A program made the translations under genes and the position numbers. Below, piece after piece: positions 44,949 through 64,000 of a stretch of DNA of 64,000 nucleotides (its first letter is position 1; every line of letters begins with the position of its first letter). The notes beneath the pieces were generated by a model. The model was not told the DNA's origin, did no database searches, and saw nothing but the letters and a program-made list of their open reading frames with translations. Origin of the DNA: an uncultured bacterium (GTDB lineage Bacteria; Patescibacteriota; Saccharimonadia; Saccharimonadales; Saccharimonadaceae). The stretch spans positions 62,001 to 126,000 of the forward strand of contig CAJBFN010000001.1 of assembly GCA_903952435.1 (NCBI GenBank), read 5' to 3'.

Positions 44949-45082
44949 CTTTATATCAAATTGCTCAAGTAGCTAATGGTTTTTATGTTTATAATATAAA
45001 AACCCAAATTACAAGCACCGTCCTTGCAATCCCAACAGAGATAAATAACCTAAAAACATTTTTATACTGCTATAATTTACTT

Positions 45083-46501
45083 ATGAATAAAAAAGCATTA
45101 GATCACTCAGTTAAATATATTAATTCATGGTTAGATCTTAGGTATGAAAATAATGATCTGCCAGGGTTTGTGGTCGCTATTTCCTATAAAGGAAAGATTC
45201 TTTTAAATAAAGCTTACGGATACGCGGATATTGATAAAAAAGTTAAATTAACACCAAATCATATCTTTAGAGTTGCTTCACACTCGAAAACTTTCACAGC
45301 GACAGCTCTTATGCAATTGCAAGAACAAGGTAAGCTAAAAATTGATGACTATGCAGTGACTTATTTGCCTTGGTTAAAAGATCATAAGGACAAGAAGTGG
45401 CAAAATGTTACCATTCGTCAGTTAATGTCTCATGGAGCTGGAATTATTAGAGATGGCCAAAATAGTAGTTTTTGGCAATTAGAGCGCCCATTTCCTAATG
45501 CCAAGCAATTAAAAGAAGAGATTTTACAATCAGACCTAGTTATCGATAATAATACAAAACTAAAGTACTCAAACTTTGGCTATTCGTTACTTGGTTTATT
45601 AATTGAAAGTATTTCTGGTAAGACATACAACAATTATGTATTAGAAAATATTAGTGAACCACTAGGACTCAAGAATACTGGACCAGATTATAAATCTGAA
45701 ATTGCGGATAAATTGGCGGTTGGCTACACTCGCAAGATTAATGGTTATCGTTTGCCGATTGATAATATCGAGACAAAAGCAATGTCAGCGGCAACAGGCT
45801 TTTATTCCACATCAGAAGACTTGTGTAATTACTTTACGGCTCAATTTGTGGGTTCGGAAAAACTTATCAATGATGAGTCAAAAAAAGAAATGCAAAGAAC
45901 ACATTGGCGCGCTACTAAACCGTTCCAGAACTTTCAAGAAGATTACGGACTTGGTATTGAAATTGAATATATTAATAATAGAAGAACTATTAGTCATGGA
46001 GGCGGTTTTCCAGGTTTCGCCACGAAAAGCATAGGAGACCCTAAAGATCAGCTAGTAGTCGTCGTGCTAACTAACTGTCACGATGGTTTATCGTCGATGA
46101 TTGCAAGAAACATTTTTCCAATAATCGATTATTTTCTAAATAATACTTCGACGGTTAAGCCAAAACATAATCTAAGTATTCTTGAAGGTCGCTATGTTGG
46201 GCGTTTAGGTTTTATCACCGACATAATCGTGACTGGCGATAAAATTGTTTCAAATTCTCCAAATAATTGGCAACCAATGCAAAATTTAGAGAGTTTAGAA
46301 TATATTGACGATACGACATTCAAGATTGTTGATGCAGACAGTTTCAGTAATGAAGGAGAGAAAGTGATCTTTAAGGTAATAGGCAGCAAAGTCGAGTCGA
46401 TCGATTATAGTGGAGTTATTATAAAACCCGAGAATATTTGGCGAAAAGACATAAAGGGACAAGAACGTATAAAATTGCTTGAACCAAAGCTAGATATGTA
46501 A
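45083..46501 (+). CDS. Serine hydrolase, beta-lactamase/class C-like family
   Basis: FRVASHSKTFTATALMQLQEQGKL (SxxK), YSNFGYSLLG (YxN), SHGGGFPGF. Confidence 0.93.
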   Translation: MNKKALDHSVKYINSWLDLRYENNDLPGFVVAISYKGKILLNKAYGYADIDKKVKLTPNHIFRVASHSKTFTATALMQLQEQGKLKIDDYAVTYLPWLKDHKDKKWQNVTIRQLMSHGAGIIRDGQNSSFWQLERPFPNAKQLKEEILQSDLVIDNNTKLKYSNFGYSLLGLLIESISGKTYNNYVLENISEPLGLKNTGPDYKSEIADKLAVGYTRKINGYRLPIDNIETKAMSAATGFYSTSEDLCNYFTAQFVGSEKLINDESKKEMQRTHWRATKPFQNFQEDYGLGIEIEYINNRRTISHGGGFPGFATKSIGDPKDQLVVVVLTNCHDGLSSMIARNIFPIIDYFLNNTSTVKPKHNLSILEGRYVGRLGFITDIIVTGDKIVSNSPNNWQPMQNLESLEYIDDTTFKIVDADSFSNEGEKVIFKVIGSKVESIDYSGVIIKPENIWRKDIKGQERIKLLEPKLDM

Positions 46502-46605
46502 TCACGCTAAAACGGTGCGTGAATAAGAACGATGCCTATTGTACCTATACAACATGGCGGGTATGGGATTTGAGTGTATAATCAAACTATATAAAAAGGA
46601 TATAA

Positions 46606-47088
46606 ATGAAGCCAGATTTACTAGATAGTTTTGAATTCCGCGGGGAGCATATTGATGTTGAGTGGTTTGATGTGTTGTCGAAGGATAAAATTCCTAATTT
46701 ACCATGGCAACAAGTTTATGTGATTGGTGATTTATCCGGCAAGGTGCCTATTGTCACTTACGAAAATGATAATGATAATTTACCTGGCGGTAAGACCGAG
46801 CCGGGCGAAACGCCTGATCAAACTATCAGGCGCGAGATACAAGAAGAGCTAAATTGTAATGTTATATCCTGGGAGCCATTGGGTTATCAGCGCTGTTCAA
46901 CTAAGGGTAAGAATGAGGTCTATCAATTAAGAGCTTTTGCGCGATTAGAAAAAATTGGCGAATTTGAATCCGATCCCGACGGAAGTGTAATCGGATATTA
47001 CACAATTGACTTAGGTGATTTAGATAAGGCAATTCAATGGGGATTAGTAGGCGAACGTTTGCAAAATATCGCAAAAAAGCATTTTTAG
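46606..47088 (+). CDS. NUDIX hydrolase
   Basis: LPGGKTEPGETPDQTIRREIQEELN (Nudix box). Confidence 0.95.
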   Translation: MKPDLLDSFEFRGEHIDVEWFDVLSKDKIPNLPWQQVYVIGDLSGKVPIVTYENDNDNLPGGKTEPGETPDQTIRREIQEELNCNVISWEPLGYQRCSTKGKNEVYQLRAFARLEKIGEFESDPDGSVIGYYTIDLGDLDKAIQWGLVGERLQNIAKKHF

Positions 47089-47164
47089 ATATATTTTCTG
47101 GATTATCTTATCATGAAATATAGATATAAAATATTATCTCGACCACTTTTGTTATAATGATTTT

Positions 47165-47614
47165 ATGGATGACAATATTGCAGGATTCTTTTTGGATGGT
47201 TGGTGTGTTTTTGATAATTTTGCGCCATTTCAGGTTGAGTGGAGGGGTAAATTATATCCAACGTCCGAACATGCATTTCAAGCTGCTCATTTTATTGAAG
47301 CATATCCAGAATTAGCCGAAAAAGTCAGACTGTGCCGGTCGCCTCGTCAAGCGTCTGATTTTGCTAATGAAAATTCTAATTTTGATGATCCGCAGTGGAA
47401 GCAAAAAAGAGTTAGCACTATGGAAGAGATTGTGAAGTGTAAATTTGATCAACATCTTTTTATAGCTGAAACTCTGAAATTATCTGGCAACAAAATAATA
47501 GTCGAAATGAATGATAATGATTCATTTTGGGGTTGGGGCCCAGATCACAACGGTAATAATGAACTTGGTAAGATTTGGATGAAGTTAAGAGATACGATGA
47601 TATGGAGCAATTAA
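47165..47614 (+). CDS. NADAR-family protein (YbiA-like)
   Basis: FDNFAPFQVEWRGKLYPTSEHAFQAAHF...FWGWGPDHNGNNELGKIWMKLRD. Confidence 0.92.
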   Translation: MDDNIAGFFLDGWCVFDNFAPFQVEWRGKLYPTSEHAFQAAHFIEAYPELAEKVRLCRSPRQASDFANENSNFDDPQWKQKRVSTMEEIVKCKFDQHLFIAETLKLSGNKIIVEMNDNDSFWGWGPDHNGNNELGKIWMKLRDTMIWSN

Positions 47615-48633
47615 AAAAAGAAATGGAAAATACTATATCACCCGTAGGTTGTGAAGCAGCCGCTAGTGAATTAGGATGTAACGTCTCTGATATTCAGGTC
47701 GTTGGAGTCGATGACGGTTACTCGCGTAATCGTCGATCTTTGGTGGGGTATGCGGATAAATGGATTTTTGCCAAAGAGGTTGACCATGATTTACTGCCAG
47801 GCGACGGCGTAGAGGAGATGAGATGGTTGCACAAAGATTTCGAGTGTACTAATGCTTTAAGGCAAACAGTCCCTGAGATTGTGCCCGAATGGGAAAAATT
47901 AACAGCAAATAATCACGTGCTTCTGATGCCGAGCTATAGGGTTGATGATGGATGGCTATGGTCTTTGCCGTTGAAGGCAGACGATCAATCTTTGTATATC
48001 CAAGCAGTGGTTGACGCTACAAAAAAGCTCGAGACTGTCAATTTTGATCAAAATGCCATAGATAATCTAAATTTAAGTCCATATTTTAGAGATAAACTCG
48101 CCCTGGATGATGGACTTGTTTTAATCCTGAAAAATGAAGATATTCGAAATCAACTCCAAGATAAATATACTGCGATGGAGCAGGATGATTCACTTATAAG
48201 TTTGCGCCATGCAATTCGTAAAATGCGCGACTTACTGAAGGACGAAGCGGCGCTTGATGATCTATCAAAAAAAGCAGCCTCACTTATCAACCAGCCAAAT
48301 AATTGTTTTGGGCACTGCGATGTTCGTAGCGATAATATTACCTTTAATCCGCTGACTGGTCAAGTAAAGTTTGTTGATTGGAACTGGGCGTCTTTTGCCA
48401 CTTCGGGATTTGGTGCGACGGAGTTTTTGATTGATATAGCAAGGCGCGGTGTTAATGTTGAGCCTTGGCTTGATAGTCTAAATATAGAAATGCTTGCCGC
48501 AACTGTGGGATTTTACGCAAAACGATGCCTTGAAGACCCACTTGCGCCAGGTAATACATTGCGCGATATGCAGGCTCAATCAGCTGCTGTTGCATTAGAT
48601 TTGTACGATATGGCCGTTAGCGCTAATAGATAA
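47602..48633 (+). CDS. Aminoglycoside phosphotransferase-like (APH) family protein
   Basis: NQPNNCFGHCDVRSDNITFNPLTGQVKFVDWNWAS (HxDxxxxN...DW). Confidence 0.85.
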   Translation: MEQLKKEMENTISPVGCEAAASELGCNVSDIQVVGVDDGYSRNRRSLVGYADKWIFAKEVDHDLLPGDGVEEMRWLHKDFECTNALRQTVPEIVPEWEKLTANNHVLLMPSYRVDDGWLWSLPLKADDQSLYIQAVVDATKKLETVNFDQNAIDNLNLSPYFRDKLALDDGLVLILKNEDIRNQLQDKYTAMEQDDSLISLRHAIRKMRDLLKDEAALDDLSKKAASLINQPNNCFGHCDVRSDNITFNPLTGQVKFVDWNWASFATSGFGATEFLIDIARRGVNVEPWLDSLNIEMLAATVGFYAKRCLEDPLAPGNTLRDMQAQSAAVALDLYDMAVSANR

Positions 48634-48655
48634 TAAAGGCCATACTATAATTAAT

Positions 48656-49153
48656 ATGCTAAAAATATACAAAAGCAAAAAGTCATTCGGCAAGTTATTT
48701 ATCAATACTAAAAAAGAATTAGAAAATATATTAGGCGATGATTGCATAATCGAGCATGTTGGCAGCACGGCAATACCTGGTGTTGATGGCAAGGGTATTA
48801 TTGATGTCTTGATAGGTTTTGATAATGAAGAGCAAATTATTAAGGCGGCCGATAAATTATTACGTCATGGTTATTTTTCTGCAAGAAAAAAATTAGAAGG
48901 TCGGAAGGATCGCGTATTTATGTCGTCCAGTAATGACGATACTACTATCGGTGACGTGCATTTACATATGGTTTTAAAAAATAGCGCAGATTTTATCGAT
49001 TTTATTAAAGTTAGAGATTTTCTTCGCCAAAATCCAGATGAAGCTGAAAAATACTCTGAATTAAAATATAAAATTGCAAAAGATGCTGGTTTTGACAGGG
49101 AAGAATATAAAAAACAGAAGAGTAAATTTATCGAAGAAATATTAAGGAAATAG
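48656..49153 (+). CDS. GrpB family (nucleotidyltransferase-fold) protein
   Basis: CIIEHVGSTAIPGVDGKGIIDVLIGF. Confidence 0.93.
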   Translation: MLKIYKSKKSFGKLFINTKKELENILGDDCIIEHVGSTAIPGVDGKGIIDVLIGFDNEEQIIKAADKLLRHGYFSARKKLEGRKDRVFMSSSNDDTTIGDVHLHMVLKNSADFIDFIKVRDFLRQNPDEAEKYSELKYKIAKDAGFDREEYKKQKSKFIEEILRK

Positions 49154-49227
49154 TTTAATTTTATAGGTATAGCATAAAAACTTGAATTGCAAGCACTGTC
49201 CTTGTTCTAAGGTGATATAATTCTTAT

Positions 49228-50214
49228 ATGATTATCCCAGATAAGTTAAAACTTGGTGACGAGATACGTGTGATTGCCCCTGCAAGATCAATGGGTATTT
49301 TAAGTGACGAATTAAAAGATATTGCCAATAAGCGTCTTTCGGAATTAGGTTATAAAGTTAGTTTTGGCAAAAATGTCGATGTTATGGACGATTTTAAATC
49401 TTCGAGCGTAGATTCCAGAGTTGCGGATTTGCACGATGCTTTTTCGGATAAGAATGTTAAGGGCATTCTTACGGTTATTGGGGGCTTTAATAGTAACCAG
49501 ATGCTTGATTATATTGACTGGGATTTAATAAAAAATAATCCAAAAATATTTTGTGGCTTCTCGGACATTACAATTTTAAATAATGCTTTTTATGCAAAGA
49601 CTGGCCTAGTTTCTTATTCTGGACCTCATTATTCAACTTTTGGTCAGAAATTATATTTTGGCTATACTCTGGATTATTTTAAAAAATGTTGTGTTGATAG
49701 TGCGCCTTTCATCATTGAAGCTTCTTCTGAATGGAGCGATGACCCATGGTATAAAGATCAGGATAGTAGGCAACCAGCAAAAAATAATGGCTTTCTAGTG
49801 ATTAATGAAGGTAAGGCAGAGGGTATTGTGATCGGGGCTAATTTATGCACTTTTAATCTATTACAAGGCACACCGTATATGCCGAGCCTAACTGATACGA
49901 TTCTATTTATTGAAGACGATGCCCATGCTGACGGAACGGACGTCATGGAGTTTGACAGGAACTTACAATCAATAATACAGCTTCCAGATTTCAAAAATGT
50001 AAAAGGTATTGTTATTGGCAGATTTCAAAAAGCTGCAAATATGACAAATGATTTATTAACTAAAATTATTAAAACCAAAAAAGAACTCAATAATATCCCT
50101 ATTATTGCAGGTGTTGATTTTGGCCATACGGACCCCAAGGTAACTTTACCTATAGGAGGCAAAGTTAAGATGGATACCGATAGTAAATCGTTATTGACGA
50201 TAATAGAACACTAG
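49228..50214 (+). CDS. S66-family LD-carboxypeptidase / microcin C7 immunity MccF-like peptidase
   Basis: VIAPARSMGILS, GILTVIGGFNSNQMLDYIDWDLIKNNPKIFCGFSDITIL, IEDDAHADGTDVMEFDRNL. Confidence 0.9.
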   Translation: MIIPDKLKLGDEIRVIAPARSMGILSDELKDIANKRLSELGYKVSFGKNVDVMDDFKSSSVDSRVADLHDAFSDKNVKGILTVIGGFNSNQMLDYIDWDLIKNNPKIFCGFSDITILNNAFYAKTGLVSYSGPHYSTFGQKLYFGYTLDYFKKCCVDSAPFIIEASSEWSDDPWYKDQDSRQPAKNNGFLVINEGKAEGIVIGANLCTFNLLQGTPYMPSLTDTILFIEDDAHADGTDVMEFDRNLQSIIQLPDFKNVKGIVIGRFQKAANMTNDLLTKIIKTKKELNNIPIIAGVDFGHTDPKVTLPIGGKVKMDTDSKSLLTIIEH

Positions 50215-50259
50215 ACTAAATAACCACTATCCTTGTTAAGATTATTTAATTATAGATGT

Positions 50260-51003
50260 CTATACCTTAGTAACAATTTCTAGCGCAATTTGAAATAGTT
50301 TTGCTGAATTTCGTTCGTTCTCTTGCGGGTTTTTGCCGTCGATGTTATCATCGGTGATTAAAAAGCTAGCAAAACTTATACTGCGAAACTGTGCAACAGC
50401 TAGCAGTGATGCCAGCTCCATATCAACAGCTACGCATCCATTATTCTTCATTGTCTGTAATTTTCCAGCCGTTTCTCGATACACGGCATCGGTTGTCCAG
50501 ACTTTGCCGTTTAGAAAAGGTATGCTATTTTCAGAAAATAATTTCTTCATTATATTTATTGAATTATCATTCTGGGCAACTTCATCGCTTGGTGATAAAT
50601 AATGATAGCTTACGCCCTCTTCGCGAAATGCAGAATTTGGAATAATAATAGTATTTTTGTTAATTTCTCTGTTTATTGCACCGCATGTGCCAAACGCGAC
50701 AATTTTGTTTATACCGCTTGCAATTAGTAGCTCCATGTCTGCAGCCGACATAGACGCACCGCCAGCTCCACTGGCTGGTGATACCAACAATATATTTTCT
50801 TGTTCATGCTGATACATAAGAAAATTATTAAAAACTCTTCCACTGGCATTTTTAGCTGGAAAAACTTCAATATTACCTTGTTCGCTTACATAATTTTCCC
50901 AAACTTCATCATCAAAAATCATTAAAGCTTTTTTGGGGCCGCCGAGAAGGTTAAGATTAGGCGGGTTAAATAAGGCATTTTTATCTGGGTCAAAGTTAAT
51001 CAT
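50260..51003 (-). CDS. Nucleoside phosphorylase (PNP/UDP family)
   Basis: LLIASGINKIVAFGTCGAINREI, GCVAVDMELASLLAVAQFRS. Confidence 0.9.
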   Translation of the reverse strand: MINFDPDKNALFNPPNLNLLGGPKKALMIFDDEVWENYVSEQGNIEVFPAKNASGRVFNNFLMYQHEQENILLVSPASGAGGASMSAADMELLIASGINKIVAFGTCGAINREINKNTIIIPNSAFREEGVSYHYLSPSDEVAQNDNSINIMKKLFSENSIPFLNGKVWTTDAVYRETAGKLQTMKNNGCVAVDMELASLLAVAQFRSISFASFLITDDNIDGKNPQENERNSAKLFQIALEIVTKV

Positions 51004-51116: not shown

Positions 51117-51668
51117 ATGAACGATATAATTTCAAAGGCCGGTAGCCTAAAAATAAAACTAACCAAACCAGATGTTAATCGTGATGCGCCTTTTGCCTTG
51201 GGTTGGTTCGAATCTATTCACGGAAAGCAAACATTATTACTTATGGGTAATGCTGAAAACGAAATAAAACCACCCACTCTTGAAGGTGAAAAGAAAACAC
51301 TTCAAAAATTTATCGAATTAGAAAAATCTAATGAACAGCTGACTTGGATGATTCAGGCTGATAATAAGACAATCGGAGCTGTATGGATTGAGCTGAAGGA
51401 TACTGAGTTTGTTAAGTCACCAGCCGTTCATATGATGATAGGTGATCCAGAATATCGAGGTCAGGGTATTGGTAGGGCTATTATGTTCGAGATGATTAAA
51501 TATGCAAAAGAAAAATTAAAATCTAGTGTTATATACTCTCGTCATCTCGTAAGTAATAAACCGGTCACAGCATTGCTAGACTCTTTTAGTTTTATTAATG
51601 ACGGTAAAAGTTATATTGATAGTAATAATCTTGAATGGCAAAATATTAAATTGACATTTGATATATAG
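51117..51668 (+). CDS. GNAT-family N-acetyltransferase
   Basis: HMMIGDPEYRGQGIGRAIMFEMIKYAKEKL. Confidence 0.9.
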   Translation: MNDIISKAGSLKIKLTKPDVNRDAPFALGWFESIHGKQTLLLMGNAENEIKPPTLEGEKKTLQKFIELEKSNEQLTWMIQADNKTIGAVWIELKDTEFVKSPAVHMMIGDPEYRGQGIGRAIMFEMIKYAKEKLKSSVIYSRHLVSNKPVTALLDSFSFINDGKSYIDSNNLEWQNIKLTFDI

Positions 51669-51695
51669 CAATTCGGCATTTAATAGCGTAAATGT

Positions 51696-51701
51696 TATAA
51701 T
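51696..51701 (+). promoter_or_regulatory. Putative -10 element (TATAAT) 8 nt upstream of the first ATG of the NRPS-containing operon
   Basis: gtTATAATaataaaATG; same spacing as at many other genes in the window. Confidence 0.5.
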
Positions 51702-51709
51702 AATAAAAT

Positions 51710-51976
51710 ATGAAGTGTAACCTCTGTAACTTTTTGGATTCTAATGGCCTTATAGAACAATGGCCATCAAAAAGGGCTAATCAGTTGGAAATTATAAAGT
51801 ATCTTGCAGATAAATTCCCTATTGGATCAACATATTCCGACAAAGAAATAAATCAAAAACTTAAGGATCTGCATACTTTTGGCGATTGGGCTATACTTCG
51901 TCGCGAATTGTGCGATCTTGGGTATTTTGAACGAGATAGAAATGGCACAATCTATATCAGAGTTGAAAGAGTATAA
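51710..51976 (+). CDS. DUF2087-domain protein
   Basis: LADKFPIGSTYSDKEINQKLKDLHTFGDWAILRRELCDLGYFERDRNGTIY. Confidence 0.85.
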   Translation: MKCNLCNFLDSNGLIEQWPSKRANQLEIIKYLADKFPIGSTYSDKEINQKLKDLHTFGDWAILRRELCDLGYFERDRNGTIYIRVERV

Positions 51977-51979
51977 TAA

Positions 51980-53014
51980 ATGTCTCCAGAAAAAATTGTT
52001 TATTATAATAAAGATCACGCAAACCACAAAGGTTGGATTGATAATGAAGGTAAGCCCTGGGATGTCCCCGAAAGACTTTTTAAGGTAGTTGACGCACTAT
52101 TAAGTGATGACAGCCTAAATATTGATTGGATGGTTTCGCCAGAGTTTCATAAAGAGACAATGGATCTTATATCAAAAGTACATTCAGTTGATATGATAAA
52201 GGCTATTAGCGACGCAAGCAAGAACGCCACATTGAACATCCCAGGTAAAACTTTCTACGATAAAGATGCTGAAGCTAATACATCTCTAATTTACCCAGGG
52301 ACTTTTGAGCAAGCTATTATGTCCGTCGAATGTGCGGTATCTGCCGCCGACTCATTGATAAATGGCGAGACAAATCTTGCTATTACTGTCAGTAGGCCAC
52401 CGGGACATCATGCTGGTAGGGAATTTTATCATGGGTTCTGTTATCTTAATAATGCCGCTGTCGCTGCCGAGGCTATGAAGAATAACAACAAGAAAGTCGC
52501 CATACTGGATATAGATGTTCACCATGGTGATGGCACTCAGGATATTTTTTTAAATGACCCAAATGTCATGTATGTATCTTTGCATGCTGACCCGAATTTA
52601 GTTATGCCAGGTACTGGATACAGCCATGAAATAGGTGTCGGCGAGGGTCTTGAAAGAACTGTTAATTTACCATTCCCAATAGGCATCGAGGCAAATGAAT
52701 ATATGAATCTATTAATAAACGCTCAAGAAAAAATAAAAGGGTTTGGCGCAGATTACTTAATCATCGAAGCGGGATTTGATGGTCATAAAAATGAATATCC
52801 TAATCTTCCACCTATTACGCAACTTGGAGATTCTGAATATAGAGAAATAGGGAGACATATTGGCGAACTTAATTTACCAAGCTTAGTTGTATTTAGTGGT
52901 GGCTACAACCAAGACGTTACCGCTCCTGCTTTTGTTTCTTACATAAAAGGCATGGAAGACTCATTACTTATAGATAGGCCGATAGTCCATACGACCGACG
53001 AATTAATACCCTAA
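51980..53014 (+). CDS. Histone deacetylase / acetylpolyamine amidohydrolase family protein
   Basis: TVSRPPGHHAGREFYHGFCYLNNAAVAAEAM, VAILDIDVHHGDGTQDIF, VVFSGGYNQDV. Confidence 0.95.
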   Translation: MSPEKIVYYNKDHANHKGWIDNEGKPWDVPERLFKVVDALLSDDSLNIDWMVSPEFHKETMDLISKVHSVDMIKAISDASKNATLNIPGKTFYDKDAEANTSLIYPGTFEQAIMSVECAVSAADSLINGETNLAITVSRPPGHHAGREFYHGFCYLNNAAVAAEAMKNNNKKVAILDIDVHHGDGTQDIFLNDPNVMYVSLHADPNLVMPGTGYSHEIGVGEGLERTVNLPFPIGIEANEYMNLLINAQEKIKGFGADYLIIEAGFDGHKNEYPNLPPITQLGDSEYREIGRHIGELNLPSLVVFSGGYNQDVTAPAFVSYIKGMEDSLLIDRPIVHTTDELIP

Positions 53015-53031
53015 CCAAAAGACTTACCAAA

Positions 53032-53616
53032 ATGATTGATATTTATATAGTAGAAAGAGCTAAATTAAAAAACGATTCTCGTAAAGTTATTCGTCGTATA
53101 GTTGAATGTATTCTAAGTTCACGCTTAAACTCAACCAGTCTTATAGGCATGTCATTCGATGAATATGGTAAACCATATATCAAGAAAAACTATAGAACAA
53201 ATTTTAATTATTCTCATTCCAAAAACATAGTAGCTATTTCTGTTGTTGCAGATACGGAAGATATTGGCATTGATACGGAACCGTTAGACAGGAGCGTTGA
53301 GATAAGTAAAATTGCACATAGTGCTTTTTCTGAAAGAGAGCTGTTAAAAATACCTAATGATAGATTTGTAAACGCTTGGTGTTTAAAAGAAGCGTCGGTG
53401 AAAATGGTAGGAAAAGGATTTAGAGAGGCGGATCCGTCAGAGTTTTCCATTGAACAAAATCAAAATAAATTTCTTTTACTGCAGGGATTAAGACAAATCG
53501 CCTGCGGTTACACGGAGACATGTATTTATCGTGAAGATGTTATCACGATATGTTCATCGAGTAAAATAGAAGGGATAAATATAATTTTATATAACATAGC
53601 TGATACAATATATTAA
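53032..53616 (+). CDS. Sfp-type 4'-phosphopantetheinyl transferase
   Basis: NFNYSHSKNIVAISV, IGIDTEPL, NAWCLKEASVKMVGKGF; directly upstream of the NRPS genes. Confidence 0.92.
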   Translation: MIDIYIVERAKLKNDSRKVIRRIVECILSSRLNSTSLIGMSFDEYGKPYIKKNYRTNFNYSHSKNIVAISVVADTEDIGIDTEPLDRSVEISKIAHSAFSERELLKIPNDRFVNAWCLKEASVKMVGKGFREADPSEFSIEQNQNKFLLLQGLRQIACGYTETCIYREDVITICSSSKIEGINIILYNIADTIY

Positions 53617-53632
53617 CAAGAGAGTTGACTTT

Positions 53633-55411
53633 ATGAGTAAAGATTTTTACGTACTTGGCTATAGTGGTTTAGATGGCTATCTAAAATATAAGAATAGCAA
53701 TATTATTAGCCTTTCAGATAGAGAGTCGCTCGTAAGTCAAGGAATGGATGCAGCTGCTGCGCTTTTGAAAAATGGCCAAATAATTGCCGCCTCAGCAGAA
53801 GAACGTTTTGGTACTATAAAACATACAGGTAACTTTCCGATGCATGCTATTAACGCTTGTTTAAATAAGGCGGGTATTAAGATATCTGATATTAGTTGCT
53901 TTGCTCATAATTTTAATTATGAACCATATAAAGAACTATTTTTTCTGAATGATTATTCTAAAAATTTATTTGATTCAATACTCAGCGATAAGGCCCAGAT
54001 CGATTTATTTAAATTAAATTACAATATAGATGTTAATGATAAATTCTTCGGCTTCGACCACCATATGTGCCATGCCGCATATGCGTTTGAAACAAGTGGG
54101 TATGAAGCGTCGCTAGTTATCATCGCAGATGGTTTAGGCGAATTTAATAGTATAAGCGTTTATAGTGGTGATAAAATTCAAGGCTTAAAACTGCTAAAAA
54201 CATATGGGCCATCAAGTTCACTGGGAATTTTATATTCTGCTGCAACCGATTATCTAGGGTTTCTTACAAACTCAGATGAGTATAAGATAATGGGCTTAGC
54301 TGCGTATGGAAACAAGACTGTATATAAAAAGCTTTTTGACGAGATTGTTGTGCTTTCTGATAATGGTAGAATTGAAATAAAAAATTTAGTTCCACAAAAA
54401 ATCAATAAACCAGAAGAACGAGAGACCTATGTGTATTTTAAGAGTTGGCTATCTCAATATATATTTAAAGAAAGAGACCCAAACGCTCCAGTCGAGCAGA
54501 AGCACAAAGACTTCGCGGCAGCCTTGCAAGAAAAAATCAATGAAGCAGTTCTGCATTTAGTTCGTCATTGGAGCCATACAACTGGTTTAAATAGTTTATG
54601 CATGGCTGGAGGTGTTGCGTTAAATTGTGTCGCAAATGAGCGCATTGCAAAATCAGGTTTGGTAAAAAGATTTTATGTAGCTCCAGCATCATCAGATGAC
54701 GGGACTTCACTTGGTGCAGCTCTAATAGCTATGCGAAATCGTGGGATATCTTTGAGTAAAAAACATTTTCTTGACATGCCTTTTTATGGCCCATCTATCG
54801 CAGAAGGTATCATAGATTATAGACTGCCAACTGAATTATCTGTTGAAAAACTTAAAGACGGCAAACTTATAGAAATCGTTGCTGATGCACTTGTGGATAA
54901 TAAAATAGTTGCGTGGGCACAGGGGAATATGGAATTTGGGCCACGAGCTCTAGGGCATAGAAGCATATTAGCGATTCCATGTGATGCTAAAATGCGCGAA
55001 AGATTAAATATAGTCACAAAACAACGAGAAAGCTTTAGACCGTTTGCGCCAATCGTGAAAAAAGAATCTATAAATAAATATTTTGAAACATATGATGGCG
55101 TTGTATATAAACATATGTTAGTAAATACCAAAGTACGAGAGAAATATCGTTCTAAACTCCAAGCCGTGATCCACATCGATGGTACTTCTAGAGCACAAGC
55201 AGTTGATAAAAAAGACTTACCATTATTATGGAAGCTTCTCGATGAAATCGAGCGACGAACTACAATTCCAGTACTTCTCAATACATCATTTAATTTAAAA
55301 TCTATGCCAATCGTATGTTATAAAAAGGATGCAATAGAATCGTATTTAAATTCAGATATTGATTTGCTAGTTATTAACAACGAAGTAATACGTAAGAGGC
55401 AAAAAAAGTGA
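53633..55411 (+). CDS. NodU/CmcH/TobZ-family O-carbamoyltransferase
   Basis: FGFDHHMCHAAYAFETSGYEASLVIIADGLGE, SLCMAGGVALNCVANERI, WAQGNMEFGPRALGHRSILAIP. Confidence 0.95.
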   Translation: MSKDFYVLGYSGLDGYLKYKNSNIISLSDRESLVSQGMDAAAALLKNGQIIAASAEERFGTIKHTGNFPMHAINACLNKAGIKISDISCFAHNFNYEPYKELFFLNDYSKNLFDSILSDKAQIDLFKLNYNIDVNDKFFGFDHHMCHAAYAFETSGYEASLVIIADGLGEFNSISVYSGDKIQGLKLLKTYGPSSSLGILYSAATDYLGFLTNSDEYKIMGLAAYGNKTVYKKLFDEIVVLSDNGRIEIKNLVPQKINKPEERETYVYFKSWLSQYIFKERDPNAPVEQKHKDFAAALQEKINEAVLHLVRHWSHTTGLNSLCMAGGVALNCVANERIAKSGLVKRFYVAPASSDDGTSLGAALIAMRNRGISLSKKHFLDMPFYGPSIAEGIIDYRLPTELSVEKLKDGKLIEIVADALVDNKIVAWAQGNMEFGPRALGHRSILAIPCDAKMRERLNIVTKQRESFRPFAPIVKKESINKYFETYDGVVYKHMLVNTKVREKYRSKLQAVIHIDGTSRAQAVDKKDLPLLWKLLDEIERRTTIPVLLNTSFNLKSMPIVCYKKDAIESYLNSDIDLLVINNEVIRKRQKK

Positions 55412-57135
55412 TAGCAAAACAATTACAAATAATCGTTAATTCAAATCCCAATAAAATATCCATAGATGATTGCAATGGAGGAGAGATTAGCTATAGGCAA
55501 TTATGGGAATTAGTTTGTACTTTTTCTGCAGCAATAGATGATTTTGCTCAAGACGATAAATATATTGGCTTAATAGCCGACCAAGATGCATACGCCGTTA
55601 TCGCTCTAGTTTCGACGATATTAAATGGTAGGACTATTATTCCTATAGATCCTAGGCTAAGCGCATTAGAGATTGAAGAAATATTGTCACCTTTTACTTG
55701 CAAGATTATATGCCGAAATATAGACACCCGTATTTTTAGTAAGCGCTTTGTCGCTTTAGAATGTGAAGATCTGATATCTAGAGAGTCTACTAACTATTGC
55801 TTTAAAGATGAAGATACCGATGCATATATTATCCATACATCGGGTACTACTGGCAAACCAAAACCAGTTCTTGCCAAGCAGGGAGCCTTGTTGCATGTTG
55901 TGACTGAGTTAATTTCAAGATATTATATTGACAATAATTCCAATGTTCTGCAATTCGCTTATATGAGCTTTGACTCGTCTTTAGCAGAAATCTTTAGTAC
56001 ATTTCTTTCTGGTGGCACCTTGATAATTCCAGGCTGCCAATTGAGAAATGATGCATATAGCGTTCTTGAGACTTTACTAATGCGTAAAGCTATATCTGTA
56101 GCAACGTTACCTCCGTCATTTGCCCTGGGCTGTAAGACTACCGCGCTATCAAATTTAGATACATTGATTTTAGCTGGTGAAGAATGCCCTATAAATCTAG
56201 CAAATAGTTTATATAAAAAAGTAAAGCACCTAATAAACGCCTATGGACCCACTGAGTCAATTATATGTGCGACTACCTATGAGATAAAGTCCCTACAAAA
56301 TATTTGCAGAGTTCCAATTGGTACGCCTCTAAACGGCATGCGAATCGAGATCGCTAATATAAAAGAAAATTGTAGCGATACGCCAGGATCCGGTGAGATG
56401 TTATTATTCAGTGACTATTTAGCACAAGGTTATCCAGGTCACAAGAGAGAAACATCAGAAAAATTCAAAGTCAATCCAAAAACGAATGCTATTTACTATA
56501 CAACCGGAGATATTGGCCACATAAATGATGATGGCAACTACGAGTTTTTGGGAAGAATAGATAATCAGATAAAAATCAATGGCCAACGGATTGAGCTAGA
56601 AAGTATTGAATCTAACATTAAAAGAATCACCGGCATTACCGAGCTGATTGTAATTTATGACGGCCATCTATATTGCGCATACAAAAATAATGGAGCAGCC
56701 CAATCCTTTGATATTAGGGGTTCATTGTCTGGTAAAATGTCTCTTCATACAATTCCAAATGTATTTATTTTGGTTGATTCAATCCTGCTTGATGGTAATG
56801 GTAAAATAAATCGTCGCGATATGCTTAATAAAATAAAAGAACAATTGCGTAGTACAAAAACTATAAATAAAACCGATAATAATTTTTGTAATGAAATGAT
56901 TATTCTCTGGGAAGCAACAATATCTGCATCTAATTCAATGATTAACGATAATTCAGACTTCTTTGAAGTTGGCGGTGATTCGTTATCTGCTCTAAGACTC
57001 GTCAAGGCTATAAACGACAAATATTTAATAAATATTAAATTAGCAGAAATCCTACAGGGCACCGTAACCCCTTTAAAAATGAGTTCAATAGTAGAGAATA
57101 AGCTTATCTTGACGAGAACATTGAATGATAACTAA
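55408..57135 (+). CDS. NRPS loading-type module: A-PCP (GTG start)
   Basis: A3 IIHTSGTTGKPKPVLAK; A5 NAYGPTESI; A7/A8 YYTTGDIGHINDDGNYEFLGRIDNQIKINGQRIELESIE; A10 NGKINRR; PCP DFFEVGGDSLSALRLV. Confidence 0.96.
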   Translation: MIAKQLQIIVNSNPNKISIDDCNGGEISYRQLWELVCTFSAAIDDFAQDDKYIGLIADQDAYAVIALVSTILNGRTIIPIDPRLSALEIEEILSPFTCKIICRNIDTRIFSKRFVALECEDLISRESTNYCFKDEDTDAYIIHTSGTTGKPKPVLAKQGALLHVVTELISRYYIDNNSNVLQFAYMSFDSSLAEIFSTFLSGGTLIIPGCQLRNDAYSVLETLLMRKAISVATLPPSFALGCKTTALSNLDTLILAGEECPINLANSLYKKVKHLINAYGPTESIICATTYEIKSLQNICRVPIGTPLNGMRIEIANIKENCSDTPGSGEMLLFSDYLAQGYPGHKRETSEKFKVNPKTNAIYYTTGDIGHINDDGNYEFLGRIDNQIKINGQRIELESIESNIKRITGITELIVIYDGHLYCAYKNNGAAQSFDIRGSLSGKMSLHTIPNVFILVDSILLDGNGKINRRDMLNKIKEQLRSTKTINKTDNNFCNEMIILWEATISASNSMINDNSDFFEVGGDSLSALRLVKAINDKYLINIKLAEILQGTVTPLKMSSIVENKLILTRTLNDN

Positions 57136-60100
57136 TTTAACACCAATAGAACAAGCATTCTGGTATCAACACAAGCTTAACCCTAAAAGTGACAGCAATA
57201 ACATAGTGCATAAGATTATGTTTAGTCGGCCGTTATCTAAGGTTGATCTTGATTGTTGCCTTGAGAATATGTGCAATAAATATCCCATTCTGAAATCTAG
57301 ATTTATTGACATAGACGGGACGCCCGTAAGAAAAGCTATTGGGCGCGGTTACGATATCGAGATATCAGCCGACCCGTTATCATCTATAGACAAAGCCCAA
57401 AAACAATTTGATCTTGAAAATGATAATTTGTTACGCTGCGTGCTACTCGATAGTAAAGTATTGTATGTGACAGTACCTCATATAATATTTGACGAAATTT
57501 CTTGGAATATATTCGTTAAAGATCTTTGCAAATACATCAAAGGAGATAATAATAAAACATTTGAAATCACCAAAGATACTAATTATATTCCATCAGATTT
57601 AAATACGGACATACGAATATATTGGAAGAACGAGTTAATAGGCGCCAGTGATCGAGTTGGTTTGATGAGCAATAATAGAATAATCTCAGATGGTGACAAG
57701 GACCTCTCGTTTTTCAAGCACAAGATAGATAAAGAGACGAGCAGGAAGTTAAAACAGCTTGCGATTTCACTACATTCATCGATGAATAGTATGTTGATGA
57801 CGCTGTTTTGTGTCACTTTAAATAAAACCACCTCAGACAATGACATAGTAATTGGAACGCCCGTTACAATTCGAGACGAACAATCAGAAGATCAAATAGG
57901 TTGCTATATAAATGTATTACCTTGTAGATTTATTATTAAAAATGAAGATCAAATAAATAATTTTATAAGTAAGAAATCAATGGACATGTGGAGTCATCTA
58001 GACATGCGCAACTTCTCACTACCAGAACTTTTGCGCGACCTGAAACTTGATCAAAATGACGAACTTAGGGGTTTGTATAATGTGATATTTGAGTATGTCC
58101 CACAAAAACTAGAGCAAGATAAATTAATCGTTTCTGATGATATCCTACCTAATTTAGCCGTTAAATTAGACTTAATGGTAAGCCTTTTTGAATCATTAAA
58201 CGGTACAGATATTTACGTCGAATATCGTAATACTCAATATTCCAAAGAATATATTGAAAATATTATTAAACGATTTATTAACGTCTGCGATCACACGATA
58301 ACTAATCCTGACTCAAAAATTAAGGACATATCAATATTATTTAGAGGCGAGGATAAAACTCTAATTGAGATAGGATGTGGCGATAAACGAGTCATTAAAG
58401 CCCCATATATTTGGAATAGATTCCAGACTAATGCATTTGCTAACCACGATAGTATTGCAGTAAAAAGTAATTACAAAACGTTAACTTATTCTGAGCTTGA
58501 ATATCTTTCTGCATCTTATGCAGATAAACTAGAAGAGTTAGGTGCTAGCGAAGGTTCGATTATTGGAGTATATATGAATCGTTCGGTTGAATATGTCGCA
58601 ACCATGCTAGCCATCTGGTCGCTTGGAGCCATTTATGTACCGCTCGATATTAATCAGCCAAGCGAGCGCATAACAAGTATGATTACCCAAGCCAATATAG
58701 GTTTTATTGTAACCAATTCGGATAATCGAAAAAGTATTAATGTATCTGTTCCATTTTATATTATAGATAGTCCACTAACGTTAGAATTGAAAAAAAATAG
58801 GAAAATCACGCGGAAGTATGAACCAACAGCAAATGACGTCGCATATATAATCTTTACTTCAGGGTCTACTGGATTACCGAAGGGGGTTATGATAAAACAC
58901 CAAGGATTTATGAATCATCTAGAGATAATGATCCATGAACTAGGCCTCAATAAATCCAGTGTTGTCGCTCAGACGGCCGAGGTATCATTCGATATATCAG
59001 TATGGCAACTAATATGCCCACTTCTTACTGGCGGTGCAGTGCGTATATGCAATAAGGATGACGTAACTAGTGTCCAAAAAATATACAATATTATTAATAA
59101 AGATAGAATATCCGTATTAGAAATAGTCCCATCGTTATTGTCTGTTTATCTCGAAGCTGAACAATCCAATTTGGTAGATAGAAAATGCTTAAAAAACACA
59201 ATAATTATCACTACTGGCGAGGCTATTAGCCCTTCAATTGTAAAGCAATGGTTTAATATCTATCAAAATAAACCTCTCTTAAACGCATACGGCCCAGCTG
59301 AGGCGTCTGATGATACCCATTTTTACCATATTAAGACAGATTCTAGCATTGAACAGACTATACCGATTGGACACCCGTTATTTAACATTGAAACCTACAT
59401 CCTTAATAATGATATGCAATTATGCCCGATTGGGATAATAGGGGAAATACATATTGGCGGAATCGCTGTTGCTGATGGATATATTAACGACAAAAAACTT
59501 ACAGATAAGGTTTTTATAGATAATCCTTTTTTAAATAACAAGAGCAAAATGTACAAAACTGGTGATTATGGAATGTGGCGCAATGACGGCGCACTAAACT
59601 TTTTAGGCAGGAAGGACTATCAGGTAAAGATAAACGGACAACGGCTTGAACTTGGTGAAATAGAAAACAAGATTCTTAATCTTGATTATGTAAAAGATGC
59701 AGCGGTTATATTTGAAGACACGCCTAGCGGTAAGCGTCTTCGAGGATATGTTACCTTCAAAGACAAAGCCCATGGCAATGATGATATAAAACGAGATCTT
59801 GAAAACAAACTACCTAGTTTCATGATTCCAAGAAGCATAGAAATAATTGATAATATCCCAAGAAATTCTAACGGAAAACTTGATCGAAAATATTTAGAGA
59901 GTTTAAGAGATACGGTAGTAAAAGACGAATGCCTTTATCAAATCAATAACACGACGCTCAATAATATTATAAGAATATGGTCAGACAATATTGGGCGTTC
60001 AATTAAACCAGACACAAATTATTTTGATGCTGGCGGCGATTCTCTACTTAGTGTAAAAATAGTTAATAACCTGAACAAAGCAGGAGTCCCCGTAAGTGTT

Positions 60101-61408
60101 AGGGATATATTAATGTATCAGACACCAGAAGAACTGGCAGCCACCGTTGAAGATAGGCAACTGGAGCAATTTAATCCCAATATGAAGCTTAGCGGTGATA
60201 CGCCCATACAGCTTGATTATCTAGAAGAATCAGGTAAGTATAGAGAATATGGAGAGATTCAGGCAGCTTTATTACGTTTTAGGATTAATAAAAAAGATAT
60301 CAATTTTGAAAATGTTATCTCAAGAATGTTACAAACGCATTCGTCCCTTAATCCGAAGGATCTTAAGAACATACTCAAAAGAGATGACAGTCTGGCTATA
60401 TTATCAGTAGAGCAGATTGAGAATATGGTTGAATTAATGCGTAAAGATGTCAATATTGAGCATCGACCAGCTACCTTGCGTTGGACTATATCGGATGGGA
60501 TTATATATTTATTAATAGTAACACATCATTTTGTGATAGATTATTATTCATGGAAAATCATATATGATGATATCTCATTATTATTAAACGGCATAACTCC
60601 AGAAATACATAATGATCAAATTATTAAGATATGGCTTGGAAATCGACTAAATAATTTGAGCGTGAGGAACCAAAGTAGTGATGAGTTTAAAAATAACTCA
60701 AATACAAATATCATTCACACTAAAAATAAACAGCTGATATTAGCGAGTGATACTAAAATTATTTATCACAATTTTTCTGTAGGCTATGACATAGAACTGC
60801 TATTATCAGAGAATGATATGGATATTAATAGTTTCGTCTGTTATTCAATAGCTAAAGCATATATCCAGATAACTGGTGATTCTATGTTCGAATACAATAT
60901 TGAGGCCTCAATTCGACAACTCGATAAGTCTAATATACTAAGTAAAGAGATCGGATGGATGACTTATAAATACCCCAGAGTAATTAATCATAACGACAGT
61001 GCTGCGGAAGTTTATAATGACCTGTCTAATAGTATAAATAGCGGAGTAGATTATGGGCTAATGAAATACAATATTGACTATGACGAAAGCCCAAGAATAA
61101 CCAACCCATTATGGACTATCAATTACATAGGAAAAACACTAAACGAGAATGATGATCTTAAAATTATAAAAACAAAATCCTATAAGGAAGTACCTTATAT
61201 TGAACTAGACATTATCAATAGTGGGGATCATATTACCTTTGAATGTATGACAAATACCAATCTAAGCGATAGATTTTTTGGTGATTTATGGGAAAAAATG
61301 GATAATATCATGCATACTATTTTGAACGACCTACGCACGCCCAATATAGCTATAAATCTAAGTAGCAATCGCGAAAAGAATATTTTAGATAGGATCAAAA
61401 ATGGATAA
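57125..61408 (+). CDS. NRPS extension module: C-A-PCP-E
   Basis: C motif VPHIIFDEISW; A3 IIFTSGSTGLPKGVMIKHQG; A5 NAYGPAEAS; A8 GRKDYQVKINGQRLELGEIE; PCP NYFDAGGDSLLSVKIV; E-domain motifs THHFVIDYYSW, EIGWMTYKYPRVI, YGLMKYN, INYIGK. Confidence 0.96.
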   Translation: MITNLTPIEQAFWYQHKLNPKSDSNNIVHKIMFSRPLSKVDLDCCLENMCNKYPILKSRFIDIDGTPVRKAIGRGYDIEISADPLSSIDKAQKQFDLENDNLLRCVLLDSKVLYVTVPHIIFDEISWNIFVKDLCKYIKGDNNKTFEITKDTNYIPSDLNTDIRIYWKNELIGASDRVGLMSNNRIISDGDKDLSFFKHKIDKETSRKLKQLAISLHSSMNSMLMTLFCVTLNKTTSDNDIVIGTPVTIRDEQSEDQIGCYINVLPCRFIIKNEDQINNFISKKSMDMWSHLDMRNFSLPELLRDLKLDQNDELRGLYNVIFEYVPQKLEQDKLIVSDDILPNLAVKLDLMVSLFESLNGTDIYVEYRNTQYSKEYIENIIKRFINVCDHTITNPDSKIKDISILFRGEDKTLIEIGCGDKRVIKAPYIWNRFQTNAFANHDSIAVKSNYKTLTYSELEYLSASYADKLEELGASEGSIIGVYMNRSVEYVATMLAIWSLGAIYVPLDINQPSERITSMITQANIGFIVTNSDNRKSINVSVPFYIIDSPLTLELKKNRKITRKYEPTANDVAYIIFTSGSTGLPKGVMIKHQGFMNHLEIMIHELGLNKSSVVAQTAEVSFDISVWQLICPLLTGGAVRICNKDDVTSVQKIYNIINKDRISVLEIVPSLLSVYLEAEQSNLVDRKCLKNTIIITTGEAISPSIVKQWFNIYQNKPLLNAYGPAEASDDTHFYHIKTDSSIEQTIPIGHPLFNIETYILNNDMQLCPIGIIGEIHIGGIAVADGYINDKKLTDKVFIDNPFLNNKSKMYKTGDYGMWRNDGALNFLGRKDYQVKINGQRLELGEIENKILNLDYVKDAAVIFEDTPSGKRLRGYVTFKDKAHGNDDIKRDLENKLPSFMIPRSIEIIDNIPRNSNGKLDRKYLESLRDTVVKDECLYQINNTTLNNIIRIWSDNIGRSIKPDTNYFDAGGDSLLSVKIVNNLNKAGVPVSVRDILMYQTPEELAATVEDRQLEQFNPNMKLSGDTPIQLDYLEESGKYREYGEIQAALLRFRINKKDINFENVISRMLQTHSSLNPKDLKNILKRDDSLAILSVEQIENMVELMRKDVNIEHRPATLRWTISDGIIYLLIVTHHFVIDYYSWKIIYDDISLLLNGITPEIHNDQIIKIWLGNRLNNLSVRNQSSDEFKNNSNTNIIHTKNKQLILASDTKIIYHNFSVGYDIELLLSENDMDINSFVCYSIAKAYIQITGDSMFEYNIEASIRQLDKSNILSKEIGWMTYKYPRVINHNDSAAEVYNDLSNSINSGVDYGLMKYNIDYDESPRITNPLWTINYIGKTLNENDDLKIIKTKSYKEVPYIELDIINSGDHITFECMTNTNLSDRFFGDLWEKMDNIMHTILNDLRTPNIAINLSSNREKNILDRIKNG

Positions 61409-63998
61409 CAATATAAACATAGAAAAAGTACTGCCAATATTGCCAGTACAGAGTGGCATGATAGCTGATAGCGCAGCTGGCACCGACGGCTATTACATTG
61501 AGCAGATTTGCATACAATTAAAACCAAGTATAAACGACAAAATATTATTATCGCGTATTAAGAGAATCGTTGAATCAAATGAAATCCTTAGAACAGTTTT
61601 TGACTGGTCGGAAGACAACGCAATACAGGTCATTATATCAGGGATAGAGCCTATCACAGCCATAATGTCCATAAATTCAGATATAGAACTAGACGCTATA
61701 TTAAATAAAGAAAGACAAACTTTAAAACCGATTAATATAGCTCCGCCGATCCGCTTTGCTATTGTTCATAATAAGGCAATCCAATATTTAGTCGTTACTT
61801 ATCACCATGTACTTTTAGATGGCCCTAGTGTAAACAGTCTACTTGATATTCTATGCACAGATGGCGGTTACTCAAAGAACTCAACAGAACAATATATTAA
61901 ATGGCAAAATGATAACACGTCGAGGCAACAACACATAGGAACATGGCAGGGATTATTAGACGGATTAATACCAGAGGACGGAATATTACCGATATCTCGT
62001 GACAATAAGGGTAAGTTAGCTATATCAAAAATTATGGTAGATATTGATTTTCGAGATAAATTGATTAAAAAAACAAAATCAATGAGCCTTACTCCAGCAG
62101 TTTGCATGCAAGTTCTCTGGGGGCAATGGTTAGCTTCTTATTTTTCCAAAAATAAGTTACTGTATGGGCTAGTAGTTAGTACTCGCATCAATGGGATCAA
62201 CGATCGGGCAATTGGCCCGTATATAGCGACTATACCATGTCTTGATAAATTAATGATCGGTAGTAGTTTTGTCGAAGTTAGTAAAAAGAAGCAAGAAGAT
62301 GTTCTTGCAATCGATATAGCTAAACATATTTCACTAAGGAATATTACACAAAATGTATCGCCATATACTGGACTATTTGATGCAATTCTTAACATAACGA
62401 CACATCCCGTAGTAAGCAAAAAATATTATGAGGTAATAAATACTTATGAGAATACAGGATATAAGCTTAGCGCTGATATTATAATTACCGACAATATCGA
62501 AATATTGTTTTCTTCATCTTGTCTAAAGAATAATCAGCTTAATGATGCTATACGGTCATTTTCGGAATATTGTTCTGTGCAGATAGAACAAGAAAATATA
62601 ATCGACATAGATCAAAAATATAAGATACATAAAATTAATCATATAAATGATAAAAAAACCATTAAAGATATCGACGTATTAGTTGCCCAATCTATTAATA
62701 TAGAGCCAAAAGTTGTCGATATGGAGATGTCATTCATCGAAAATGGCGGCGACTCAATAAATGCCCTTCGTCTGGTAAATTTATTACAAGCAAGAGACAT
62801 AGCCTGTTCTGTTGGTGATATCCTAAGAGCTAAGTCACTAAATAACATAACTGATAAAAATGCTGATAATGTTGGCATTCAGACACAGAAAAAAAATAAC
62901 AGCAAAGTAGAATACGAGGTAGACGTATTAAATATTCCATTTTCAACACAGCGTATAATCGACGCTTACAAAACGGGTTACGGACAGGACTATCACGAAC
63001 AAACTGCGTTTAAGCTTGCATCCGACCTTGATGTTAACATAATGAAGCTGGCATTATATGAACTTGGCATGGAAATACCAACTTTACGCTTGAAGTACTC
63101 AGAAGGGCATATAAACAAACAGAAACTAACCAATAAGCCCCGCATAAGCCTAAAGAATATTAAAAGAAATACAACTTTTGATGATTTTATCAAAAGAGTC
63201 TCCGATGATGATATGAAGCATGAAATTAATATTAACCATGGAGATTTATTTAGAGTAGTAATGCAATCATATAAAAATGGCTATTACTTCCTCATAGGTT
63301 TTTCAGCACTGGTAACCGACGGATGGTCTTTTTCAAAATTATTATCGAGGTTATTCGAAATTTATGGAGATATATCAAAAAATTGCCATACACGTCGTGT
63401 GGATGTATCTTATATTAATTACTGTAAACAATATCAAACCGACAACACTCAAATAGAGCAAGATCTACCTATAAAAAAATTATCATATTCATTTGATGTA
63501 TCTCAAAAAAAATATTATATAAATAAGGCACAAACTAATAAGATAATTAGTAACTGTAAATCTAAGAATCTAACTATTAATGATTATTTATTAAAACAAG
63601 CCATATCTATTCTTACCGGTCGAGATTTTTCAAATCTTGAAATTTATGAAAATGGTCGCAACAATTTCAGTCTTTATGATTCTGTGGGGCCGTATAGTCA
63701 TTTATTAACAAAAACAATAAATAACGTAATATCAAATAGGGCATATTTTGTTTTTGAGAATTACCCAAAAGATGATGAAAATCGCTTAAGAAATAATATG
63801 ATAGAGAATTTTAAAGAAAACGGCAATTGGCGACGCACATTATTGCCACCAGCTACAATATTAGGCTTATCGTTTGAAACAACAGAAGACGAGATTATTG
63901 TGCTAATCGCGGCTCGTAGAGGAAGTGACATTAAAATTAATGATTACTGGGAGGACTTAATTAATATTATAAATAAGGAGGATAAATATGGATTTTGA
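61401..63998 (+). CDS. NRPS protein lacking an A domain: C-PCP-C(degenerate)
   Basis: C motif YHHVLLDGPS; PCP MSFIENGGDSINALRLVNLL; second C-like domain FSTQRIIDAY...FSALVTDGWSF without the HH; TGA stop at 63996-63998. Confidence 0.92.
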   Translation: MDNNINIEKVLPILPVQSGMIADSAAGTDGYYIEQICIQLKPSINDKILLSRIKRIVESNEILRTVFDWSEDNAIQVIISGIEPITAIMSINSDIELDAILNKERQTLKPINIAPPIRFAIVHNKAIQYLVVTYHHVLLDGPSVNSLLDILCTDGGYSKNSTEQYIKWQNDNTSRQQHIGTWQGLLDGLIPEDGILPISRDNKGKLAISKIMVDIDFRDKLIKKTKSMSLTPAVCMQVLWGQWLASYFSKNKLLYGLVVSTRINGINDRAIGPYIATIPCLDKLMIGSSFVEVSKKKQEDVLAIDIAKHISLRNITQNVSPYTGLFDAILNITTHPVVSKKYYEVINTYENTGYKLSADIIITDNIEILFSSSCLKNNQLNDAIRSFSEYCSVQIEQENIIDIDQKYKIHKINHINDKKTIKDIDVLVAQSINIEPKVVDMEMSFIENGGDSINALRLVNLLQARDIACSVGDILRAKSLNNITDKNADNVGIQTQKKNNSKVEYEVDVLNIPFSTQRIIDAYKTGYGQDYHEQTAFKLASDLDVNIMKLALYELGMEIPTLRLKYSEGHINKQKLTNKPRISLKNIKRNTTFDDFIKRVSDDDMKHEININHGDLFRVVMQSYKNGYYFLIGFSALVTDGWSFSKLLSRLFEIYGDISKNCHTRRVDVSYINYCKQYQTDNTQIEQDLPIKKLSYSFDVSQKKYYINKAQTNKIISNCKSKNLTINDYLLKQAISILTGRDFSNLEIYENGRNNFSLYDSVGPYSHLLTKTINNVISNRAYFVFENYPKDDENRLRNNMIENFKENGNWRRTLLPPATILGLSFETTEDEIIVLIAARRGSDIKINDYWEDLINIINKEDKYGF

Positions 63999-64000
63999 GA
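63988..64000 (+). CDS. Start of a further operon gene overlapping the NRPS stop (cut by the window edge)
   Basis: AAGGAGGATAAATATGGATTTTGAGA: strong RBS plus ATG overlapping the upstream TGA. Confidence 0.6.

Follow-up and report, generated by a model that had tools for sequence, protein, structure and literature searches.

A 64,000-nucleotide stretch of DNA (the window; positions 62001-126000 of a 168,677-base contig) carries an operon of nine intact, co-directional genes built around nonribosomal peptide synthetase (NRPS) proteins. The operon spans window positions 51,710-64,000 and runs on to ~65,773 of the same 168.7-kb contig. Our preferred reading, to which we assign a probability of about 60%, is that a Saccharibacteria chromosome has gained by horizontal transfer a complete pathway for a nonribosomal peptide, working as in the mechanism proposed below. 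A related cluster is present in G103 (public record JAUIGH010000001.1, bacterium isolate Co_bin.139), which belongs to another genus of the same family. Since nine intact co-directional genes lie together and their content is kept in a second genus, the grouping goes beyond chance. Gene content, intactness, conservation and the mobility of the G103 locus were read directly from the sequence; the substrate of the second adenylation domain (A2), the cap, the target and the role are what we infer.

The operon and its catalytic motifs

Domains were called by profile searches with Pfam and NCBIfam. The initial annotation had described a nearly gapless run of genes for a 4'-phosphopantetheinyl transferase (PPTase), a carbamoyltransferase and NRPS proteins made up of adenylation (A), thiolation (T), condensation (C) and epimerization (E) domains. 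Its junctions (51976/51980, 53014/53032 and 53616/53633) and overlaps (55408-55411, 57125-57135, 61401-61408 and 63988-63998) are exact, and the PPTase, carbamoyltransferase, AMP-binding, PP-binding and Condensation domains all score above the Pfam cut-offs. Extension of the contig to the right, which had been recommended, identified the gene at 63988 as EctB, followed by a GNAT acetyltransferase (GNAT-a). The nine genes thus run from DUF2087 to GNAT-a in the following list, where C* is a C domain that lacks the catalytic His.

51117..51668, + strand: GNAT-b acetyltransferase, probable cluster member (Pfam Acetyltransf_1; 49% identity to the broken GNAT of the G103 island)
51673..51709, + strand: candidate operon promoter TCGGCA-17-TGxTATAAT, 8 bases 5' of the DUF2087 start codon (consensus match only)
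51710..51976, + strand: DUF2087 protein, possible small regulator (Pfam PF09860, 76.7 bits; counterpart in the G103 island)
51980..53014, + strand: histone deacetylase (HDAC)-family deacetylase of the acetylpolyamine amidohydrolase type (Pfam Hist_deacetyl, 207.7 bits; PDB relatives; 59% identity to G103)
53032..53616, + strand: Sfp-type PPTase (Pfam ACPS, 39.2 against a cut-off of 25)
53633..55411, + strand: NodU/TobZ-type carbamoyltransferase (Pfam Carbam_trans_N and Carbam_trans_C; PDB matches NovN, GdmN and TobZ)
55408..57135, + strand: NRPS A-T, A code DSATIAAICK (Pfam/NCBIfam, code reading)
57125..61408, + strand: NRPS C-A-T-E, A code DIWEITADDK (Pfam/NCBIfam, motif reading)
61401..63998, + strand: NRPS C-T-C*, with an intact first C (HHVLLDG), a T that lacks an A domain of its own and a C* that lacks the catalytic His
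63988-65235 (L004:289-1536), + strand, past the window end at 64000: EctB, diaminobutyrate-2-oxoglutarate transaminase (TIGR02407, 612.7 bits against an equivalog cut-off of 552.2)
65270-65773 (L004:1571-2074), after EctB: GNAT-a acetyltransferase (48% identity to the G103 copy)

The catalytic motifs of the assembly line are largely in place. The GGDS serine is kept in all three T domains, Lys517 is present in the A domains, and HHxxxDG is found in the first C domain of C-T-C*. The E domain keeps HHxxxDxxSW (as HHFVIDYYSW) and its Glu, and it aligns with the E domain of a homologue, though Pfam did not split it out. The final C domain had been marked C*, and indeed both His residues of HHxxxDG are lost (FSALVTDG); the G103 C* retains the first motif His but is without the second, catalytic one (SFHILVTDG). 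An AlphaFold model of C* from a two-row alignment reached a pLDDT of 31 and was not used. The Pfam scan detected no thioesterase (TE) or reductase (R) release domain, the final domain being the His-less C*. Such release domains are common in NRPS and are not required.

The carbamoyltransferase keeps HHxxH and DG.GE in comparison with its PDB matches NovN, GdmN and TobZ, and the His/Asp residues of the metal site are present. The top NCBIfam match of the PPTase is the AusB PPTase, at a score under the equivalog cut-off, and apart from the three T domains of the operon no PP-binding domain was found in the 0.69-Mb genome, which leaves the PPTase without another evident substrate. Promoter-like sites such as the one preceding DUF2087 numbered 17 in the region, against 12.6 expected.

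Host genome, rarity and a related genomic island

The genome comprises 686,464 bases and is 97.9% complete, and its kin form a large family of 0.7-1.1-Mb genomes, in agreement with Saccharibacteria. The site of the TM7-specific primer TM7-580F was matched exactly at C2:20794 inside the 16S gene (Rfam: bacterial small subunit rRNA). Size, completeness and primer site support the view that the genome is Saccharibacteria-like.

An artefact of assembly or binning, by which an operon from another bacterium was joined to a candidate phyla radiation (CPR) contig, is very improbable. In favour of such a join, the GC content of the operon (0.347) lies somewhat below that of the remaining window (0.386). 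However, a typical CPR gene set had been noted on the contig, and CPR-type core genes do flank the operon on both sides of one continuous contig, with RuvABC, RecA, Rny, MurA, GlyA and type IV pilus genes on the left (window 1-44 kb; named by eye except RuvB) and PGK, TPI, UvrD, MetG, AlaS and Obg genes on the right (~30 kb; named by eye). Between the operon and host genes, codon use shows a correlation of r 0.77, within the range of single host genes (0.43-0.89); the G103 homologues gave 0.22-0.38 against host genes. A break in composition had been named as a sign of chimerism, but GC is low across a broad region of ~44-71 kb with no sharp step at the operon. In addition, a homologous cluster was assembled independently in a second family member. 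A chimeric contig was therefore rejected on the continuity of the contig, the codon use and the second genome.

Neither a tRNA gene nor a convincing flanking repeat was found at the edges of the window operon, only the broad AT-rich stretch at 44-71 kb. An 18-bp repeat at 45012-45029 and L004:19139 was considered as an attachment site and rejected as a dispersed intergenic element. This palindrome-like intergenic repeat, CAAGCACCGTCCTTGCAA, has a 15-base core at window 45012-45029, L004:19139 and L005:18507, all on the same contig, and is a candidate terminator or uptake-type element.

Several neighbouring genes were recorded as well. The AT-rich accessory stretch at 45083-51003, upstream of the operon, encodes a beta-lactamase-family protein, NUDIX, NADAR, kinase-like and GrpB proteins, an S66 (LD-carboxypeptidase/MccF-like) peptidase and a nucleoside phosphorylase, and several of these genes resemble resistance or detoxification genes. 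Just past GNAT-a, a 239-aa protein at L004:2206-2925 has no family match and carries a HEALH motif, possibly as a metallopeptidase. A few kb downstream of the operon (L004:4214-6852), a PaaK-like ligase gene overlaps a ThiF/E1-like gene (top match Rv1355c family), and the two could form a second small biosynthetic pair.

In the literature consulted, CPR biosynthetic clusters are described as rare and are mostly of the ribosomally synthesized and post-translationally modified peptide (RiPP), terpene or single-enzyme type (PMC7298704, PMC11794875, PMC12153355), and two cultured Saccharibacteria are without NRPS or polyketide synthase (PKS) genes (PMC8694215). The linear azol(in)e-containing peptide (LAP), lantipeptide and terpene clusters of PMC7298704 and the AzeJ clade of PMC11794875 resemble the present operon as rare accessory biosynthesis in reduced genomes, but they consist of RiPP, terpene or azetidine-carboxylate enzymes. 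An NRPS operon in a CPR bacterium had been called highly unusual, and our searches of family, class and phylum samples, which overlap and include the window genome, agree with this. Condensation domains were found in 2/295 family genomes, namely the window genome and G103, and only the window genome exceeded the cut-off among 392 class genomes and likewise among 379 phylum genomes. Weak Condensation matches in genomes G464 and G483 were short, interrupted by stops and below the cut-off, and were rejected. A separate search for the deacetylase in the same 295 genomes returned exactly the same two genomes as for NRPS, and we conclude that the deacetylase at 51980 is a member of the cluster.

A search for the operon in other Saccharibacteria had also been proposed, and the related cluster of G103 was the outcome. 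Its NRPS consists of A-T-C-A-T-E fused into one protein and C-T-C*, with the domain order of the window, at 24-31% identity between the NRPS proteins. The cluster also holds a PPTase, the deacetylase (59% identity), GNAT-a (48%) and DUF2087 (41%). No match to the carbamoyltransferase was found in the G103 cluster region, which instead holds an FAD-dependent amino-acid-oxidase-like gene. The gene order is shuffled relative to the window operon. Because the content is conserved despite this shuffling and strong divergence, there is good evidence from sequence comparison that the genes work together as a set.

The G103 cluster spans ~16.9 kb and is bounded on one side by a tRNA-Gln gene and on the other by a repeat of 17 bases of its 3' end, TCGAATCCCTCCACCCC, for which the chance expectation in the stretches compared is 0.0005. 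GC is 0.43-0.51 within these bounds vs 0.51-0.59 outside, and they also enclose a broken gene for a serine recombinase (Recombinase). Given the tRNA-Gln target, the repeat, the GC step and the recombinase remnant, the G103 locus is a genomic island integrated at the tRNA-Gln gene. EctB and GNAT-b are broken by frameshifts and stops in this island (L010:5464-7217), on a low-coverage contig in which assembly error is possible.

Predicted product and proposed mechanism

The A2 code is identical in the window and G103 (DIWEITADDK), while the codes of the first A domain (A1) are DSATIAAICK in the window and DGSVVAAICK in G103. The former resembles the known GrsA phenylalanine code DAWTIAAICK, which the GrsA reference stretch returned as expected; the first residue is perhaps aromatic. 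In a Paenibacillus sonchi NRPS located directly 5' of EctB, the second A domain has the code DVGEISAIDK, which has 6/10 positions in common with DIWEITADDK (Asp235, Glu278, Ile299, Ala322, Asp331 and Lys517). Linkage to EctB by itself was ruled out as proof of the substrate, as an Agrobacterium vitis NRPS adjoining EctB reads DAEVVGAVAK. A Nostoc plasmid NRPS beside EctB was truncated before the code positions. Based on the EctB linkage together with the shared Glu278 and Asp331, our best guess is that A2 activates 2,4-diaminobutyrate (Dab). The E domain is predicted to give its D form, and a short peptide containing D-diaminobutyrate is the most likely product.

In the proposed mechanism, the PPTase would activate the three T domains, A1 would load a probably aromatic or hydrophobic residue, and EctB would supply L-2,4-diaminobutyrate, which A2 would load and the E domain invert. 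The third T domain may be loaded in trans, or it may carry the dipeptide to C*, which would recruit a partner or achieve product release in an unusual way. The carbamoyltransferase would decorate the product or a building block, resulting in a short, cationic, carbamoylated peptide. By acetylating the free side-chain amine, a GNAT enzyme may hold the product in an inert form within the cell, a modification that the deacetylase would reverse. Acetylation is a known means of self-protection, and the reversible cap is suggested by the conservation of GNAT and an acetylpolyamine-type deacetylase in both clusters. Some precursors would come from the host, and the product would most likely act on the host or on competitors, pointing to a putative role in host interaction or antagonism.

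Several observations weigh against this mechanism. The self-protection cycle is read from gene content only, and there is no exporter gene inside the operon. The broken EctB and GNAT-b genes of G103 imply that Dab supply is not obligatory there, while the absence of a catalytic His from C* and of an A domain for the third T domain means that chain length and release are not fixed by sequence. A literature search by code letters gave no confirmation of DIWEITADDK as a Dab code. Furthermore, neither the large subunit of carbamoyl-phosphate synthase nor ornithine or aspartate transcarbamylase (OTC/ATC), which bear on the source of carbamoyl phosphate, nor Asd as a source of aspartate semialdehyde, was found in the 97.9% complete genome. 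The amino-acid kinase family (aspartokinase, carbamate kinase, UMP kinase PyrH) likewise gave no match in it; all 14 control genomes were matched in each of these searches. Since precursor synthesis genes were not found, we propose that the cell may draw these substrates from its host; alternatively, its enzymes may use others.

The missing precursor genes, the degenerate C* and the broken EctB and GNAT-b of G103 would also fit a remnant, that is, a partly decayed pathway no longer yielding a product. We judge this rather unlikely, as none of the nine genes is broken in the window genome and their overlaps are tight, the serines of the T domains and the motifs of A, E and the first C of C-T-C* are conserved, and identities of 59% for the deacetylase and 48% for GNAT-a across genera indicate that they are held by selection.

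In three relatives without NRPS, EctB adjoins MurE-like and FemX-like genes (L027:8298-11913, L028:4226-11855 and L029:7821-14043; by eye), with aspartokinase and Asd also beside it in two of the three (by eye). These relatives probably put diaminobutyrate into the cell wall, to judge from these gene neighbourhoods. EctB and the deacetylase of the window could serve peptidoglycan or Dab salvage as mere neighbours of the NRPS genes. This is improbable, because EctB shares 11 bases with the end of the last NRPS gene, no family genome but the two with NRPS has the deacetylase, and in the EctB tree the window copy pairs, if weakly, with the broken EctB of the G103 island (75/85) and not with the two relatives that form a clade of their own. 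With a pairing of this weakness, recruitment of the operon EctB from a cell-wall EctB was unsupported.

The peptide could alternatively be a metallophore or nutrient scavenger, with Dab amines and the carbamoyl group binding or mimicking a nutrient for the cell or its host. Dab is a constituent of some NRPS siderophores, pyoverdine among them, the peptide would be short, and neither an obvious toxin target nor a dedicated exporter was seen. Nevertheless, genes for catechol, hydroxamate or hydroxy-acid ligands or for siderophore uptake were not seen beside the operon, and GNAT plus deacetylase are a better fit for protection, which makes scavenging unlikely. The preferred reading of a working peptide pathway may be extended to a mobile weapon or means of host manipulation of obligate epibionts, combining island exchange, host-fed precursors and an acetylation-guarded D-diaminobutyrate peptide; we put this forward tentatively, as one possible elaboration.

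Relation to known systems and significance

The NRPS proteins have A, C, T and E domains and catalytic motifs in common with LgrA (linear gramicidin), the tyrocidine and gramicidin synthetases and AusA, whose AusB PPTase has its counterpart in the PPTase of the window operon. Unlike these, they are without TE or R domains, end in C-T-C* with a His-less C*, and belong to a 0.69-Mb Saccharibacterium. The carbamoyltransferase shares both Pfam domains and the metal-site residues with the O-carbamoyltransferases TobZ, NovN and GdmN, but it is at best 41% identical to plasmid relatives and occurs in a genome in which no carbamoyl-phosphate source was found. Likewise, the deacetylase shares the zinc site and HH motifs of acetylpolyamine amidohydrolases (APAHs) and class II HDACs, APAHs being its top single-domain bacterial PDB relatives. 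In contrast to that family it is tied to an NRPS cluster, and its identity to plasmid relatives is <=42% among the matches listed.

EctB adjoins NRPS genes, as in the window, on a Paenibacillus sonchi plasmid and in the NRPS/PKS cluster of the Nostoc C052 plasmid pC052_C. The latter cluster also has a carbamoyltransferase, though its NRPS and carbamoyltransferase are only distant relatives of those of the window, and these EctB-linked clusters carry exporters, PKS or TE parts, unlike the window operon. On the Nostoc plasmid, L034:14196-22938 holds the carbamoyltransferase, a DevBCA-type exporter, EctB and the truncated NRPS, with adjoining PKS genes.

Saccharibacteria have very small genomes and live on other bacteria. 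The operon extends NRPS assembly lines to a lineage almost without them (2/295 family genomes), and the failure to find precursor genes makes the feeding of a biosynthetic pathway by the host testable. The same gene set on the G103 island suggests that Saccharibacteria can trade chemical tools, and a compact, intact and apparently mobile peptide pathway provides a concrete molecule to seek.

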